DNA of 64,000 bases from an uncultured Burkholderiales bacterium. GTDB lineage: Bacteria > Pseudomonadota > Gammaproteobacteria > Burkholderiales > Burkholderiaceae_C. Shown piece by piece: positions 26,677 through 35,261 of the stretch. The notes under the pieces were generated by a model that was given only the letters and a program-made list of their open reading frames with translations, searched no databases and was not told the DNA's origin. A program made the translations under genes and the position numbers. Each line of letters opens with the position of its first letter. Positions within the stretch are counted from its first letter, which is position 1. The stretch lies in assembly GCA_903933115.1 (NCBI GenBank), contig CAIZIT010000070.1, positions 62,001 through 126,000 of the forward strand. The letters are read 5' to 3'.

Positions 26677-26945
26677 GTTGCTGAGCTCGGCATTTTAACC
26701 TTCTAAATTAAGGGTAAATACTAGGATCCTTGTTTTCTTTCTTGCGTTTTTTCCCGTTTTGTCCTCAACGAATAGAAGTCTCTATGGCGTTGATGAGGCC
26801 CAAAGCATGAAGACCTCTGTGTGGTCAAGCCCATGTTTTCCCAGCGCATAGGGAGCGTCATCCATAGGTATACTGAAGGCTTTTCGGGCGCAGCCATCTG
26901 TGCTTCGTACCGATGAACCGACAACTCAGCAAAAGGATACGAAAT

Positions 26946-28154
26946 ATGGCCAAAAGCCAAAAAGACACCCCTATTTTGATCGCTGGAGGAGGCATTGGAG
27001 GCTTGGCTGCAGCCCTGTCTTTGAGCCGCAGGGGGTTTAGGGTTCAAGTGCTGGAGCAGTCACCCGAGATTGGAGAAATCGGAGCGGGTATTCAGTTGGG
27101 CCCCAATGGTTTTTCAGCCTTTGATGCCCTAGGCATTGGAGAAAAGGCACGCTCCAGAGCGGTGTACACCGATTACATGGTGATGCAAGACGCGGTAGAT
27201 GCCAAACAGGTTGGACAAATTCCAACGGGTGAGGCTTTTCGGGCTCGATTTGGAAACCCCTACGCGGTGATCCACAGGGCGGATGTGCACTTGTCACTTT
27301 TTGAGGGTGCTCAACAAAGTGATTTGGTGGAATTCAAAACCTCAACCCGTATCGAACGCATCGAGCAAAACGATCAAAGTGTGACGGTTTACGATCAAAA
27401 CGGACAGGCCTATCACGGTCAAGCTTTGATTGGTGCAGATGGGGTGAAGTCGGTGGTGAGACAGCACTTTGTTGGCGACCCTCACCGTGTCACGGGTCAT
27501 GTGGTCTACCGTGCGGTGGTTGAGAAAGAGGATTTTCCAAAAGACTTGCAGTGGAATGCCGCAGCGATTTGGGTGGGCCCCAATTGTCACTTGGTTCACT
27601 ATCCCATTCGGGGTGGAGCACAATACAACGTGGTGGTGACCTTTCACTCCAGAGAAACTGAGGAGTGGGGCGTCAAGGACGGCAGCCCCGAAGAAGTTCA
27701 GAGTTACTTTCAAGGCGTTTGTGACCAAGCACGCCAACTGATCGATTTGCCAAAAAGCTGGCGTCGTTGGGCCACAGCAGATCGTGACCCCATCGCACAG
27801 TGGTCCTATGGCCGAAGCACCTTGCTCGGCGATGCGGCGCATCCCACAACCCAATACATGGCCCAAGGTGCATGCATGGCCATGGAGGATGCAGTGACGC
27901 TTGGCGAAGCGCTGAGGGTTTGTGATGATGACTTTGTCAAAGCCTTTGACGTGTACCAAAAAGCGAGGGTGGCCAGAACAGCAAGAATCGTCTTGTCCTC
28001 TAGGGAGATGGGACGTCTCTACCACGCCAAGGGCGTTGAGAGGCTTGTGAGAAATGATTTGTGGCGGGGCAGAACGCCAGAGCGTTTTTATGACGCTTTA
28101 GAGTGGTTGTACAGTTGGAAGTTGGAGAATTGCCTCTCTGCTGTGAACGATTGA
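26946..28154 (+). CDS. FAD monooxygenase, likely 3-hydroxybenzoate 6-hydroxylase
   Basis: About 402 residues, a class A flavoprotein monooxygenase. It has the FAD-binding GGGIGGLAAAL near the start, the DG motif (GADGVKSVVR) and the GD motif (GDAAHPTTQYMAQGA). The C-terminal YDALEWLYSWKLENCL ending resembles 3-hydroxybenzoate 6-hydroxylases, which make gentisate using NADH and O2; salicylate 1-hydroxylases are close relatives. The ATG at 26946 is chosen because AAAAGGATA precedes it at proper spacing; 26913 would add 11 residues. Gentisate 1,2-dioxygenase follows 78 bp later, which strongly favours gentisate as product. Confidence 0.87.
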   Translation: MAKSQKDTPILIAGGGIGGLAAALSLSRRGFRVQVLEQSPEIGEIGAGIQLGPNGFSAFDALGIGEKARSRAVYTDYMVMQDAVDAKQVGQIPTGEAFRARFGNPYAVIHRADVHLSLFEGAQQSDLVEFKTSTRIERIEQNDQSVTVYDQNGQAYHGQALIGADGVKSVVRQHFVGDPHRVTGHVVYRAVVEKEDFPKDLQWNAAAIWVGPNCHLVHYPIRGGAQYNVVVTFHSRETEEWGVKDGSPEEVQSYFQGVCDQARQLIDLPKSWRRWATADRDPIAQWSYGRSTLLGDAAHPTTQYMAQGACMAMEDAVTLGEALRVCDDDFVKAFDVYQKARVARTARIVLSSREMGRLYHAKGVERLVRNDLWRGRTPERFYDALEWLYSWKLENCLSAVND

Positions 28155-28200
28155 GAGCTGAGCTCAAGGTCTCTTCATCACAACCGACGCTATAAAAAAA

Positions 28201-28220
28201 TTACGCAAACGTTTACGCCA
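28201..28220. promoter_or_regulatory. Operator-like palindrome upstream of gentisate dioxygenase
   Basis: An imperfect 20-bp palindrome centred on AAACGTTT (TTACGCAAAC/GTTTACGCCA) ends 12 bp before the dioxygenase start. The core resembles LacI/GalR-type operators, but no such regulator is in this window. It lies in the spacer between two co-directional genes. Confidence 0.3.
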
Positions 28221-28232
28221 ACAATTGGAGAC

Positions 28233-29285
28233 ATGCACATGAAAGAAGATGTTGAATTGGGTCGATTGGAAGACTTGCCCAAAGATTATGTTGATGACCT
28301 CACTCAAGTGAATTTAGTTCCCTTATGGCCCAGTTTGAGAGGGGTTTTACCTCCTCAAAAGCCCAGGCCCTTGACCCAAGCCACGGCTTGGAATTACAAA
28401 GACATCAGACCCCTTTTGATGAAGGCTGGGGAGGTCACCCCCATCGAGAAGGCTGAGCGCCGAGTTTTGGTCTTGGCCAATCCTGGCCATGGCCTACAAA
28501 AGATGCAGGCCAGTGCGGCCATTTATTTGGGCATGCAGTTGTTGCTGCCTGGCGAATTGGCGCCCCCACATCGCCACACGCCCAACGCCGTTCGAATGAT
28601 CGTGGAGGGAGAGGGCGCCTACACCACGGTGCAGGGTGAGAAGTGTCCCATGTCCAGAGGTGACTTGATCCTCACTCCTACGGGCTTGTGGCATGAGCAT
28701 GGCCACGATGGGGACCAACCGGTGGTTTGGTTGGATGTCTTGGATCTTCCCTTGGTTTATTACACAGAGACCTCATACCACATCAATGGTGAGGAGCAGC
28801 CCATCACCCCAGGTCACGGGGAGCAGCAGTACAAGGCTGCGGGTGTGATCCCCACGCCCATGTTCACCAGAAGTGATAAGGCTTATCCCATCTTGCGTTT
28901 TCCTTGGGCAGATGTGAAGGCTTCACTCGAGAGTTTGGCCAATGATCCCAGTCATGTAGAGGCGGTTCAAGTCACATACATCAATCCCTTGACGGGACAA
29001 GATGTGGAGAATATTTTGGGCTTTTACGCGCTGATGCTCAGGCCGGGTCAAAAGCTCAGATTGCCTGCAAGATCGCCCGCTTGTGTTTTTCACGTGATTG
29101 AGGGCGCCATGGTTTTGAAATTTGAAGACAAAACATTCCCGCTCGGCGACGCAGACACTTGCTGTGTTCCTGGCTATGGAGAAGTGTTTTTGACCAATCA
29201 AAGTGCCACAGAACCTACTTTTGTTTTTATGACCGATGAGAGTCCCTTGCACCGCAAGTTGGGTGTGTACGAAAACTGGGGTTGA
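28233..29285 (+). CDS. Gentisate 1,2-dioxygenase
   Basis: A 350-residue bicupin. The first cupin carries the Fe(II) ligands in PPHRHTPNAVRMIVEGEG and WHEHGHDG; the second cupin (about 250-330) lacks a full ligand set, as is normal in this family. The enzyme opens gentisate between the carboxyl and the adjacent hydroxyl to give maleylpyruvate. It follows the 3-hydroxybenzoate hydroxylase and probably shares its transcript. ATG codons at 28233 and 28239 are both possible; GGAG lies nine bases before the second. Maleylpyruvate isomerase is not adjacent; the FAH-family gene at 13934 is one candidate for the later hydrolase step. Confidence 0.92.
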   Translation: MHMKEDVELGRLEDLPKDYVDDLTQVNLVPLWPSLRGVLPPQKPRPLTQATAWNYKDIRPLLMKAGEVTPIEKAERRVLVLANPGHGLQKMQASAAIYLGMQLLLPGELAPPHRHTPNAVRMIVEGEGAYTTVQGEKCPMSRGDLILTPTGLWHEHGHDGDQPVVWLDVLDLPLVYYTETSYHINGEEQPITPGHGEQQYKAAGVIPTPMFTRSDKAYPILRFPWADVKASLESLANDPSHVEAVQVTYINPLTGQDVENILGFYALMLRPGQKLRLPARSPACVFHVIEGAMVLKFEDKTFPLGDADTCCVPGYGEVFLTNQSATEPTFVFMTDESPLHRKLGVYENWG

Positions 29286-29413
29286 GACGACGCTTGTCGT
29301 TGGAGCAGCGAAATAAGTTCTGGTTGAATGAGGCGACCAATTAGAAGGCACTTGAGACGCCAATTGAGATGACCATGTGCGCAAGCTGCTTTTGTACGCC
29401 AAATGACTAGACT
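29286..29413. other. Spacer between gentisate dioxygenase and left repeat arm
   Basis: No gene recognised. A short frame at 29289-29345 reads RRLSLEQRNKFWLNEATN before a stop, which looks protein-like but is too short to assign; it may be a remnant of an inserted gene. Confidence 0.3.
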
Positions 29414-29604
29414 CGCACGGGTCGCTCTAGTGGTGTCACCGTGCGATAAGGTCATATTGAATCTAGGAACCTTTGACGTTCACCTCGTGTCCATGAGCGG
29501 CAAATGGACACTTGGTCACTATCGAAGAAAGCTGACCTGTACCGTCTCGAGCGAAACCAAGACTTGAGTCCCTCGATTTAAAGGCCAAAATCATACGGTA
29601 ATGC
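29414..29604 (+). repeat. Left arm of 191-bp inverted repeat
   Basis: Begins CGCACGGG and ends near CGGTAATGC. It contains two internal hairpins: CGCACGG ... CCGTGCG near its outer end and GTGTCCAT-N9-ATGGACAC in the middle, plus the palindrome GACTTGAGTC. No long open frame is conserved between the arms. Confidence 0.85.
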
Positions 29605-29727
29605 AACCATCAAGCACGGGCAGAGCGCAAAAGCCGCCATCTTACAAAGAACGTCAAACCGTGCTTTGATCAACCCACTGCTCAAGCAGTCGATTCGTCA
29701 TCAAACAATATTTGGTGAAGAATAGAA

Positions 29728-29755
29728 TTGACTAAGATAGCATATTTGCTATAAT
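29728..29755 (+). promoter_or_regulatory. Strong promoter of the toxin-antitoxin pair with overlapping operator
   Basis: TTGACT (29728-29733), 16 bp, then consensus TATAAT (29750-29755). A perfect inverted repeat ATAGCA-TATT-TGCTAT (29737-29752) overlaps the -10 box and is of the kind bound by XRE-type antitoxins. The -10 box ends six bases before the toxin ATG, so transcription should start at or next to that ATG. Confidence 0.75.
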
Positions 29756-29761
29756 TTTTTG

Positions 29762-30088
29762 ATGGGTTACAAACTCCTGTTCTTCAATGCCAAAGTTCAG
29801 GCCTCAATAGAGGCTTGGCCTTCTGGGATCAATGCGAGTTTTGTTCGTATTGCAGAGCAGATGGTGGTCTCGGGTCCAAATCTTGGGATGCCGTACACCC
29901 GTGCTTTTGGCGATGGACTATTTGAGATTCGTGCCAAGGGTGCTGAAGGTATTGGCAGGGCGTTCTTTTGCTGCATTATGGGGCGTCGTGTGATCATTTT
30001 GCATGGATTCATCAAAAAGACCCAGACAACACCCAAGAAGGAAACTGAAATTGCACGAAAACGTCTTAAGGAGATTCATCATGACTGA
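29762..30088 (+). CDS. higB: HigB/RelE-type toxin (phage Gp49-like, DUF891)
   Basis: A 108-residue protein with the Gp49-like toxin fold: LFFNAKVQASIEAWP at the N-terminus, then the MPYTRAFGDGLFEIRAKG and RRVIILHGFIKKTQTTP segments typical of this family. Members cleave mRNA at the ribosome and inhibit translation. I use the ATG at 29762; a TTG directly before it adds one residue. The predicted transcript is leaderless. The toxin-first order and an 8-bp overlap with the antitoxin gene fit HigBA systems. It sits between the two 191-bp inverted repeats. Confidence 0.85.
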   Translation: MGYKLLFFNAKVQASIEAWPSGINASFVRIAEQMVVSGPNLGMPYTRAFGDGLFEIRAKGAEGIGRAFFCCIMGRRVIILHGFIKKTQTTPKKETEIARKRLKEIHHD

Positions 30089-30404
30089 TGACAATAACTT
30101 CAGCCCCGTCGCCTTTGACCCATCTGGATATGCTACCAAGCGCCGCAAAAAGGATGAGAAATTTGCGATGGCTTACGATGCATTAGAAGACGAGTTCGAC
30201 GCATTGGCAGCCCTTTTAAAGGCACGTGCAACAGCAGGTCTTACTCAAGCAGAAGTTGCTACTCGCATGGGTGTTTCGCAACCAGTAGTCGCTCGCATTG
30301 AGTCAAGTTTGGGCAAGAAGGACCACTCACCCTCACTCAATACACTTCGTCGATATGCAGATGCCTGCGGAATGAAGCTCGTGATCCAGATGGTTGCACA
30401 ATAA
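30081..30404 (+). CDS. higA: XRE-family antitoxin, HigA-like
   Basis: A 107-residue protein with a charged N-terminal third and a helix-turn-helix in the second half (LTQAEVATRMGVSQPVVARI, near residues 55-75). Such antitoxins neutralise the toxin and repress their own promoter. AAGGAG precedes the ATG at 30081 at good spacing, so this start is better than the upstream in-frame start at 30003. The overlap with the toxin stop implies coupling. The likely binding site is the palindrome over the -10 box at 29737-29752. Confidence 0.87.
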   Translation: MTDDNNFSPVAFDPSGYATKRRKKDEKFAMAYDALEDEFDALAALLKARATAGLTQAEVATRMGVSQPVVARIESSLGKKDHSPSLNTLRRYADACGMKLVIQMVAQ

Positions 30405-30598
30405 AGGATTTCCATCCAATCAGACCCATAAGATCTATTTCGCAGAGGAACGAAAGCTGCCATTACAACAATGCCGTCAGGTGGGCATTTGTGTAAGACC
30501 TCTCCTGAGGCCTTGGTTTACCTTAGCAAGCGATGCAATCAACTGTCCTTGATGTCATATTGACATTCAATAAATGCAATCGAATTCCCTGGACGAAA
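30405..30598. other. Spacer between antitoxin and right repeat arm
   Basis: No gene recognised. It contains the small inverted repeat TGTCA-TAT-TGACA near 30554, without a T run. Nothing else stands out. Confidence 0.4.
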
Positions 30599-30789
30599 GC
30601 ATTCCTGTATGATTTTGGATCTTAAATTGGGGGACTCAAGTCTTAGACTCGCTCGAGACGGTTCAGGTCAGTTTTCTTCGTTAGTGACCAAGTGTCCATT
30701 TGCCTTTCATGGACACGAGGTGAACGTCAAAGGTTCCTGGTTTCAATATGACCTTATCGCACGGTGACGCCACTTGAGCGTCCCGTGCG
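30599..30789 (-). repeat. Right arm of 191-bp inverted repeat
   Basis: Reverse complement of the left arm with about 20 substitutions and no gaps. The same internal hairpins are kept, including the GTGTCCAT/ATGGACAC stem, while the loop between its arms has changed. The outer hairpin lies just beyond the cytX stop and may also end its transcript. Confidence 0.85.
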
Positions 30790-30802
30790 TACCCGTGCCC
30801 GA

Positions 30803-33404: not shown

Positions 33405-33887
33405 TTACAAAGGGATGATCATCAGTGTCTCAATGACACGCGAGTCAAAGAGAAAAAGTCGATCTTTAAAGAGAGGAGCTTGGTCTTTGAGACTAATCAA
33501 GTCTTGGGTTTGTCCACTTGCAAAGATCTTCATGTCGCCTGAGAGGTCCATGGTTCGGGTGATTAAGAAATTAGACCGAACTTCAAAGACCATGGGCTCG
33601 GGTTCAGAGAGGATCTGAATGCCGGAGATCATGTGCCTGTAGTGGTGGGGTTGGTAAACATTGGCTTTTCTCATCGACAAAATTCGGTCCCTGAGTTGGG
33701 CCACGCCCTTGCAGTCAATCACCGCCAAGGGCAGCCCTCGGTCGTGATTGAATCGGGACTTGACTCTGTAGCGTCCCGTGTCCTCCATGTGTTGAGCGAT
33801 GTCCTCTACGCGGTCCTCGTCAATGGCTCTTGCCCAAGAGTAAATCAATTGTTCTATGGCTTTGTAGTGTTGTTCAAATGCAATCAT
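33405..33887 (-). CDS. Rieske ring-hydroxylating oxygenase, small (beta) subunit
   Basis: A 160-residue protein of the NTF2-like beta-subunit family of ring-hydroxylating oxygenases (YSWARAIDEDRVEDIAQHME, then QPHHYRHMISGIQI). It has no catalytic metal and stabilises the alpha hexamer. Its size matches the small subunits of salicylate 5-hydroxylase and anthranilate 1,2-dioxygenase. It follows the alpha gene by 78 bp. Confidence 0.85.
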   Translation of the reverse strand: MIAFEQHYKAIEQLIYSWARAIDEDRVEDIAQHMEDTGRYRVKSRFNHDRGLPLAVIDCKGVAQLRDRILSMRKANVYQPHHYRHMISGIQILSEPEPMVFEVRSNFLITRTMDLSGDMKIFASGQTQDLISLKDQAPLFKDRLFLFDSRVIETLMIIPL

Positions 33888-33965
33888 GATTGGCGAGAAA
33901 GATAAAGTGGTTGGTGTTGTTCTCAGCGGGAGTGGTCAAAGGTGGGGGGCCTTTGACCCTAAAAC

Positions 33966-35261
33966 TCAGAGTTTCATGTCCAACTTGTAGTGATGCCAGA
34001 AATTGCGAATTGCACGCTCAGACAATTTGCTGGAGCCCGAGATGTCCAAATCCTTTCCGCCCATTTCAATGAAGGACGCACCTTCTTGAGCATCCCCGAA
34101 GGCGTGTTGCATCATCTCGCAAACGGCAGCATCCTCCACCGAGATCATGCCCGCTGAGCCCGCCAAATTGGTTTGAACGAGGCGGCGTTCAGTGAGGGCT
34201 TCATCATCGTCTTCGAAACCAAAGTAAGTCCAGACCAAATCGGTTTGACCTGGTCCTTTGGTGCAAATTTGACGGGTGGCTAAACTGTTGGCAATTTGAT
34301 GAAGCACAAAACCAGGATAAGTGGTCAAAATTTGAACACTCACACCGTCGCCGTACTCGTCGCTCCACTTCAAGATGCTGGGGTCTTCAAGCTTCAAGCC
34401 GTCGTTGTGTGACCGCAATTGGGTGGAGGTTTTTTCATAATCTGCAGATTTTTTCTCTGTGCCTGCCTTGGTGTAAAAGTAGACATGGCGGCCATTCTTA
34501 TCCAAAATCATGCCAGATTCCTGGGACATGCGAGAAAGCCCAAAGGTGCCATAAAAGGTGTGCAATATATTGGCATGGTAGGAGTCACGTGGGTTTTCGT
34601 GATAGGCCTTCCAATTGGCATGGATGCGTTGAGTGTCATAGCCCAATACTTTGAGGGGTTTTTTCAATACACGTCGAATGCCATTTGCCACCTCACCCAG
34701 CCACTCCTCAAGGGGCGGGGTTTCTTGTGAGAAAGTGGCAAAAACAAGACCGCAAATCGTTTCAACTCGAAGTTTTTGCAGTCCATGGTCTTCGTGTTTG
34801 AAGTCCTTGGGCAATCCCCCTTCACCCCTGAGGCCTTGACTGAAGGCTGCATGACTCAAGTCGCCCTTTAAGGTGTAGCTCCAGGCGTGATAAACGCAAT
34901 AAAGTTTCTTGGTGCTTCCAAATGCTTCTCGGGTCATCATGTTGCCCCGGTGAGCGCAACGGTTGAGCATGGCGTTCAAGGAGCCATCATCCGCTCGGGT
35001 CAAAATCACGGACTGCTCACCAATGTAAGTGCTCTTGAAGTTACCAGGCTCTTTCACCTCCGCTTCTAAGCCCAAATAGTGCCAATTGGCGCCTCTGAAG
35101 ATGTGTTCTTGCTCTTTTAAAAAGATCTCCTCGTCTTGATAAACCCAATAAGGTGCGCGTGTAAAGCCCTCACTTGGCCATTGGCGAGATGACTTCGCAG
35201 TAGGTGTAGTGATGCCTGAGGAGATTGGCGCATGAGGGGTCTGAGGATCGGATGGAGGCAT
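33966..35261 (-). CDS. Rieske ring-hydroxylating oxygenase, large (alpha) subunit
   Basis: A 431-residue catalytic subunit. The Rieske [2Fe-2S] ligands are in CAHRG and CVYHAW. The mononuclear iron ligands are in DSYHANILH with a later Asp (EDAAVCEMM region). The alpha/beta pair of 431 and 160 residues is close in size to salicylate 5-hydroxylase (NagGH) and anthranilate dioxygenase (AndAc/AndAd). A nearby gentisate dioxygenase favours a salicylate-type substrate giving gentisate, but this is inference. No ferredoxin or reductase gene is in this window, so electrons must come from elsewhere. The operon continues with the beta subunit and a Bug protein. Confidence 0.87.
   Translation of the reverse strand: MPPSDPQTPHAPISSGITTPTAKSSRQWPSEGFTRAPYWVYQDEEIFLKEQEHIFRGANWHYLGLEAEVKEPGNFKSTYIGEQSVILTRADDGSLNAMLNRCAHRGNMMTREAFGSTKKLYCVYHAWSYTLKGDLSHAAFSQGLRGEGGLPKDFKHEDHGLQKLRVETICGLVFATFSQETPPLEEWLGEVANGIRRVLKKPLKVLGYDTQRIHANWKAYHENPRDSYHANILHTFYGTFGLSRMSQESGMILDKNGRHVYFYTKAGTEKKSADYEKTSTQLRSHNDGLKLEDPSILKWSDEYGDGVSVQILTTYPGFVLHQIANSLATRQICTKGPGQTDLVWTYFGFEDDDEALTERRLVQTNLAGSAGMISVEDAAVCEMMQHAFGDAQEGASFIEMGGKDLDISGSSKLSERAIRNFWHHYKLDMKL

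Follow-up and report, generated by a model that had tools for sequence, protein, structure and literature searches.

A Gp49-HTH toxin-antitoxin pair between 191-bp inverted repeats: a possible non-autonomous mobile unit in a Burkholderiales genome

Introduction

Can a toxin-antitoxin pair be the sole cargo of an element that carries no transposase? The question is raised by an island of 1,376 bp in which two long inverted repeats, included in that length, bracket a single gene pair. It lies in a 64,000-nucleotide stretch of DNA from an uncultured Burkholderiales bacterium, and we call this whole stretch the window. Toxin-antitoxin pairs are credited with stabilising mobile DNA, and a cassette holding nothing else would separate the selfish value of the pair from any passenger. 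The original prediction, made from the letters of the window, spoke of a non-autonomous mobile unit whose plan is not that of a standard insertion sequence. It proposed to look for copies of the repeat with other cargo, for empty sites and for target duplications, and it named as grounds for abandoning the idea a repeat found only in a known insertion sequence, or a locus shared by all relatives.

Results

Two long arms, the only inverted pair of their size in the window

A repeat search of the window places the arms 994 nt apart and 90% complementary, and direct comparison gives 171 identical positions out of 191 with zero indels, so that the predicted description (two opposite 191-bp arms, gap-free and about 90% identical) proves exact. 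They are the sole inverted pair of at least 35 nt in the 64-kb window (11-base seed), which makes chance an unreasonable source for them. G+C content is 50% in the left arm, 46% in the interior between the arms and about 52% in both flanks. The features of the island and of its immediate surroundings are the following.

29286..29413: left-hand part of the dioxygenase-cytX spacer, 128 bp
29414..29604, + strand: left 191-bp repeat arm; matches the right arm, read as its reverse complement, at 171/191 positions without gaps
29414..29445, + strand: tip palindrome of the left arm, a weak hairpin (-7.4 kcal/mol, z -1.96; 11/200 shuffles fold at least as well)
29470..29530, + strand: internal dyad stretch of the left arm, GTGTCCAT-N9-ATGGACAC (z -2.17, 7/200 shuffles)
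29728..29755, + strand: TTGACT-16-TATAAT, promoter-like site for the toxin-antitoxin pair; a short dyad seen by eye, AGCATATTTGCT, overlaps it
29762..30088, + strand: toxin gene of the Gp49/HigB type, in the RelE/ParE superfamily; 108 aa if the ATG at 29762 is the start, 109 aa if it is the TTG at 29759
30081..30404, + strand: antitoxin gene, XRE-type HTH (Pfam HTH_3 and HTH_31), overlapping the toxin gene by 8 bp
30599..30789, - strand: right 191-bp repeat arm, the only other copy in the organism's own genome
30673-30733: mirror copy of the internal dyad stretch, in the right arm (z -1.92, 8/200 shuffles)
30758..30789, - strand: tip palindrome of the right arm, a strong hairpin (-14.3 kcal/mol, z -5.69; equalled or bettered by 0/200 shuffles)
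30790..30802: right-hand part of the dioxygenase-cytX spacer, 13 bp

Both half-sites of the internal dyad are identical in the two arms, and the folding of this stretch is only mildly unusual in either of them. The 20 differences between the arms fall seven in the outer 108 positions and 13 in the inner 83 (Fisher p 0.055), a hint, not significant, of the trend expected if the outer ends were constrained. If the arms were once identical, their divergence of about 10% suggests that there has been no recent movement. By eye the differences look partly periodic. We rejected the arms as coding relics: small ORFs within or overlapping them (two ORFs) have no Pfam or PHROGs family, and tblastn of the arm ORFs against plasmids gave nothing better than E ~1, a stretch of MobF relaxase in five Mycobacterium records being among the matches.

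The pair belongs by sequence to an ordinary type II family

The toxin scores 87.6 bits against the Pfam Gp49 model (PF05973, cut-off 23.9); its sole PDB match at E 0.01 is the HigB toxin 6af3 (E 2.5e-5), and it matches phrog_2523 of PHROGs at E 2.9e-30, with zero NCBIfam families at E 0.001. The antitoxin reaches 39.2 bits for HTH_3 (cut-off 23) and 38.1 for HTH_31 (cut-off 27), and falls short for HTH_37, the model cited for the antitoxins of Tn3 pairs (19.7 vs a cut-off of 27). By sequence we assign the pair to the type II Gp49-HTH (HigBA-type) family: both proteins pass curated cut-offs, and the genes are adjacent, toxin first, and kept as a pair. The promoter-like site upstream matches 11 of 12 consensus positions and has a TG before its second hexamer. 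A scan of the region returned 2 sites, vs 1.9 expected in shuffles, so that a consensus match alone proves no promoter, and the support for this candidate is its position together with the 11/12 match. A TGCTATA- or TGATATA-type box can also be seen by eye directly upstream of the toxin in the six nearest relatives. Between arms and genes lie non-coding stretches of 154-157 bp on the left and 194 bp on the right.

Five further small ORFs between the arms have no Pfam match above cut-off (one sub-cut-off hit to DUF5437, 16.6 bits vs 27), in line with the claim that the arms enclose the HigBA-type pair alone. The predicted lack of a transposase held as well: Pfam detected none in the toxin, the antitoxin, these five ORFs or the eight neighbouring genes between 24608 and 35261, that is, inside the island or within some 4 to 5 kb of it. 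Those eight neighbours are metabolic, transport or regulatory genes.

Related pairs are found elsewhere without the arms

Toxin relatives are present in 35 of the 84 genus genomes and in 75 of 280 of the family sample (the own genome counted in both), and in all 46 genome loci examined, which are those fetched for the best toxin matches and not every match, an antitoxin relative stands beside the toxin. A toxin relative was also found in 1,093 plasmid records, every one below 60% identity. The pair therefore belongs to an ordinary, widespread family. The six nearest pairs of the genus (toxin 67-73% identical, antitoxin 65-69%) come from genomes in which we saw no convincing arm match and no long enclosing inverted repeat, so the pair also exists without these arms.

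An enclosing inverted repeat below E 1e-4 turned up at one of 54 other toxin loci (46 genome and 8 viral), scanned with flanks of at most ~1.5-2 kb (one viral locus whole), with the default toxin position for most, and with several loci ending at contig ends. At this one locus, L019, two inverted copies of a motif (1276-1304 and 2063-2091) have the toxin-antitoxin pair between them. We rejected it as an arm-like case: the repeat is a motif dispersed across the genus. Among the toxin loci examined, long arms are thus peculiar to the window's own copy. Motifs of the type AATTGGGGTCAGATTCCAATT (up to one mismatch), which we take to resemble a REP-type repeat, occur in 65 of the 84 genus genomes, at times as inverted pairs, with 85 sites in one genome (G425), 95 in another (G461) and none in the window's genome; a reversed-pattern control gave 0 in all 84.

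An extra segment between two convergent genes

The island sits in the spacer between two convergent genes and disrupts neither. On its left is a cupin dioxygenase, whose best NCBIfam model is gentisate 1,2-dioxygenase, below cut-off (250.2 vs 442.1), and on its right a CytX-like NCS1 transporter, likewise scored below the NCBIfam cut-off (257.3 vs 309.85). The spacer measures 1,517 bp in the window and 141 bp if the island is subtracted. A cytX search of the 84 genus genomes gave matches in 31, own included, and we compared 20 cytX loci, the window's own and 19 others of these matches. The dioxygenase adjoins cytX in four of the 19 (L024-L027, from four genomes), each time without the island and with a spacer of 132, 109, 109 and 155 bp, respectively. 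Because two of them, L025 and L026, are nearly identical over the dioxygenase-cytX stretch, the four empty sites amount to about three independent observations; and because the relatives' spacers are too diverged to align, the exact base of insertion is unreadable. The empty sites proposed by the original prediction were therefore found, in four genomes of the same genus with spacers of 109-155 bp, and the locus is not in all relatives. The simplest reading is that the island was gained in the window's lineage; its loss in the relatives is possible and needs more events.

The search for a target-site duplication had a negative outcome. Within 12 bp of either boundary the longest direct match has 3 bp and lies inside the arms, and outside the arms no direct repeat of at least 3 bp was found at the island boundaries; in a random control, 886 of 1,000 place pairs gave at least 4 bp. 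A duplication is absent, has decayed or was never made. The window contains no tRNA gene that could have served as a target. Two side observations come from these comparisons: genome G453 has two cytX copies (C95 and C14), both with 79% identity to that of the window, and the L025 region of G453 and the L026 region of G435 are nearly identical.

The arms have no relatives in the genomes searched

In the own draft genome (99.3% complete) the arm occurs twice only, at the two ends of the island. With 119 contigs, however, this draft assembly could lack a parent element that is present in several copies. Across the 84 genus genomes, searched at E up to 10, the best outside match is 24 bp long (E 0.0099, G430); it falls inside a TctC receptor gene, and we rejected it, like the weaker genus matches, as chance. 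The arm was found in one of 399 genomes of the family sample, one of 399 of the order sample (27-mer, up to 3 mismatches) and one of 209 of the phylum sample, always the own genome. The whole island matched in 8 of 369 genomes of the class sample, and the seven others match only the equivalent of 29738-30304, that is, the promoter region and the gene pair, with the arms matched in none. These samples overlap, are drawn from larger groups and are not exhaustive; per genome, we scored the best two or three first-look candidates (family, class and phylum) or up to nine (genus).

Plasmids carry many Tn3 elements. Against plasmids and phages, the whole island found nothing at E 1e-5. The arm alone, searched against plasmids at E up to 10, matched three Cupriavidus records over 25-28 bp (E 7). 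In one record the match coincides with an annotated transposase gene; we took all three as chance. Scans of viral contigs with longer arm pieces found none. In sum, an autonomous parent element with these ends was detected neither in the own genome nor in the genome samples, plasmids and phages, and none of the genome samples, from genus to phylum, holds an arm copy with other cargo, as the original prediction had envisaged. Its ground for abandonment, an arm known only from an insertion sequence, found no counterpart among the plasmid and phage records. As far as we searched, the segment is peculiar to the window's lineage.

We also rejected the internal dyad as a signature of the arms. Its 16-base pattern occurs in at least 118 stretches of genome contigs and in 12 of viral contigs, and a 22-base version gave zero matches. 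When the arms were compared by BLAST with 229 fetched non-own loci, the best dyad locus reached E 0.014 and the longest match 45 bases among the matches listed, so that within these no dyad locus is a relative of the arms. As observations in their own right, five copies of GTGTCCAT-N9-ATGGACAC lie in one viral contig (L198, 652-4025), the two inspected both overlapping promoter-like boxes by eye, and in many Pantoea stewartii loci among L080-L159 the same pattern stands ~50-75 bases in from an end, a placement that would be expected of a repeated insertion sequence breaking the assembly.

Discussion

Our preferred account, which we hold by a narrow measure of belief, is that the 1,376-bp island is a non-autonomous element without a transposase, whose arms are its ends, which was moved in trans and retained by its pair. 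The 191-bp arms would be the ends of the element, and its sole cargo the type II Gp49-HTH pair, which has a promoter-like site to itself. The element would once have been moved by a transposase from elsewhere into the dioxygenase-cytX spacer, where the pair, to judge from its family, may have penalised loss of the segment by killing or arresting the cells that lost it. The island would then have persisted while its arms drifted about 10% apart, and it is probably no longer mobile. What we observed is the anatomy of the island, the open reading frames of the pair, the empty site in four relatives and no transposase inside or within some 4 to 5 kb; the role of the arms in transposition, the mobilisation in trans and the retention by addiction we infer. 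An element is favoured by the sharp ends of the arms around just one gene pair and by the four empty sites. Against it stand the single copy, the lack of other cargo, of a parent and of a target duplication, the weakness of the hairpin at the left tip, and an arm length far above the 24-38 bp of the repeats in described cassettes. It is the first of these points, together with the missing parent and target duplication, that keeps our confidence near one half. The notion of a non-autonomous mobile unit, as originally proposed, thus fares well as to an extra segment, with four empty sites beside it, and less well as to mobility, for which two arm copies, a single cargo and no target duplication were found. 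A bolder version would make the arms the ends of an undescribed transposon family, defined by long terminal repeats with a tip hairpin and an inner palindrome, of which the compact toxin-antitoxin form would be a minimal selfish unit: the ends move, addiction retains and the transposase is borrowed. We regard this version as quite improbable.

The island could also be the relic of a larger autonomous transposon with the toxin-antitoxin pair as a passenger, from which the transposase was lost by internal deletion while the pair resisted being deleted. Gp49-HTH pairs are indeed known as transposon cargo beside transposase genes, in the portions available of the report (PMC7157771), and the non-coding stretches on either side of the genes (154-157 and 194 bp) could be deletion scars. 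However, the interior of the island shows no vestige of a transposase reading frame, and none of the genome, plasmid or phage searches found an autonomous relative with these ends, so we consider this history unlikely, if still a serious contender. It is also conceivable that there was no transposition at all, the pair having arrived through recombination with foreign DNA and the arms being an inverted duplication, born of template switching or rearrangement, instead of ends. The missing target duplication and the lack of other arm copies fit this well, as does the rarity of enclosing repeats around other pairs of the family (the one case in 54 being a dispersed motif). Yet each arm has a clean boundary, with only one gene pair enclosed, and in both the tip palindrome and the internal one follow in the same order; we think such an origin unlikely.

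A last alternative would see the arms maintained by the host, as a bidirectional terminator or a structured spacer of the convergent genes, with the pair incidental. The flanking genes are indeed convergent, and there are palindromes in the arms, a strong one among them. Four relatives, however, do without the island; a terminator scan gave one site, located outside the arms, vs 1.4 expected in shuffles; and no Rfam family came near or reached its cut-off. We give this explanation very little credence.

Under the preferred account of a transposase-less element moved in trans, the island works like a mobile insertion cassette (MIC). As described in the available excerpts of the reports cited here, MICs carry cargo between two inverted repeats without a transposase gene, mic-qnrD having imperfect inverted repeats and its own promoter (PMC3913671); further examples are the qnrS2 cassettes, mic-qnrS2 (PMC4444841), and a MIC that interrupts a toxin gene and does not carry a pair (PMC5736529). 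The island is likewise bracketed by two inverted repeats, with no transposase gene inside or between 24608 and 35261. The original prediction was hence right that this is not a standard insertion-sequence design, though the same excerpts show that transposase-less inverted-repeat cassettes had already been described (PMC3913671). The differences are of several kinds. The repeats of MICs measure 24 and 37 bp in the excerpts (PMC3913671, PMC8508797), whereas those of the island have 191 bp. MICs usually show a target duplication and the island has none. Their ends are common to the element that mobilises them, MIC231 being moved by the IS231A transposase (PMC3913671, PMC8508797) and a Listeria example resembling a Tn3-family transposon at its ends (PMC8508797), while our searches found no such element for the island. 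And its cargo is a toxin-antitoxin pair, unlike that of the MICs described there. We do not file it as a MIC, because neither a target duplication nor ends in common with a known element were found in our searches.

Two groups of Tn3 derivation invite comparison, again as far as the available parts of the sources go. TIMEs and mosaic non-autonomous elements derived from Tn3 lack a transposase gene between their terminal inverted repeats; their ends are 38 bp long, of the Tn3 family, and they make target duplications of 5 or 6 bp (PMC4133298). The island has 191-bp arms and shows neither, to judge, for the ends, by arm-plasmid matches that never exceed 28 bp. Tn4662a and its relatives, of the Tn3 family, do have a PF05973 toxin before an HTH antitoxin as cargo, but they carry transposase and resolvase genes (PMC7157771), neither of which was found in the island. 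Chromosomal and plasmid higBA-like type II pairs share with the island the Gp49 and HTH families and the order of the genes, toxin first with an overlapping or adjacent antitoxin; unlike the island, the six nearest such pairs of the genus have no long inverted repeats around them. In the literature available to us, which mostly leaves out subscription journals and in part consists of excerpts, and is thus weak evidence of absence, no toxin-antitoxin pair appears as the sole cargo of a MIC-type cassette.

Were a moving relative to be found, it would offer a minimal system for testing addiction alone as the keeper of a non-autonomous element. With a single copy and unassigned ends, the island only suggests such a minimal addiction unit.

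The surroundings of the island deserve a final mention. A FAD monooxygenase and the cupin dioxygenase lie side by side at 26913-29285, the latter scoring for both gentisate and 5-aminosalicylate dioxygenase models, below both cut-offs, and beyond cytX and a TctC receptor a Rieske ring-hydroxylating dioxygenase is found with a small subunit (33405-35261).
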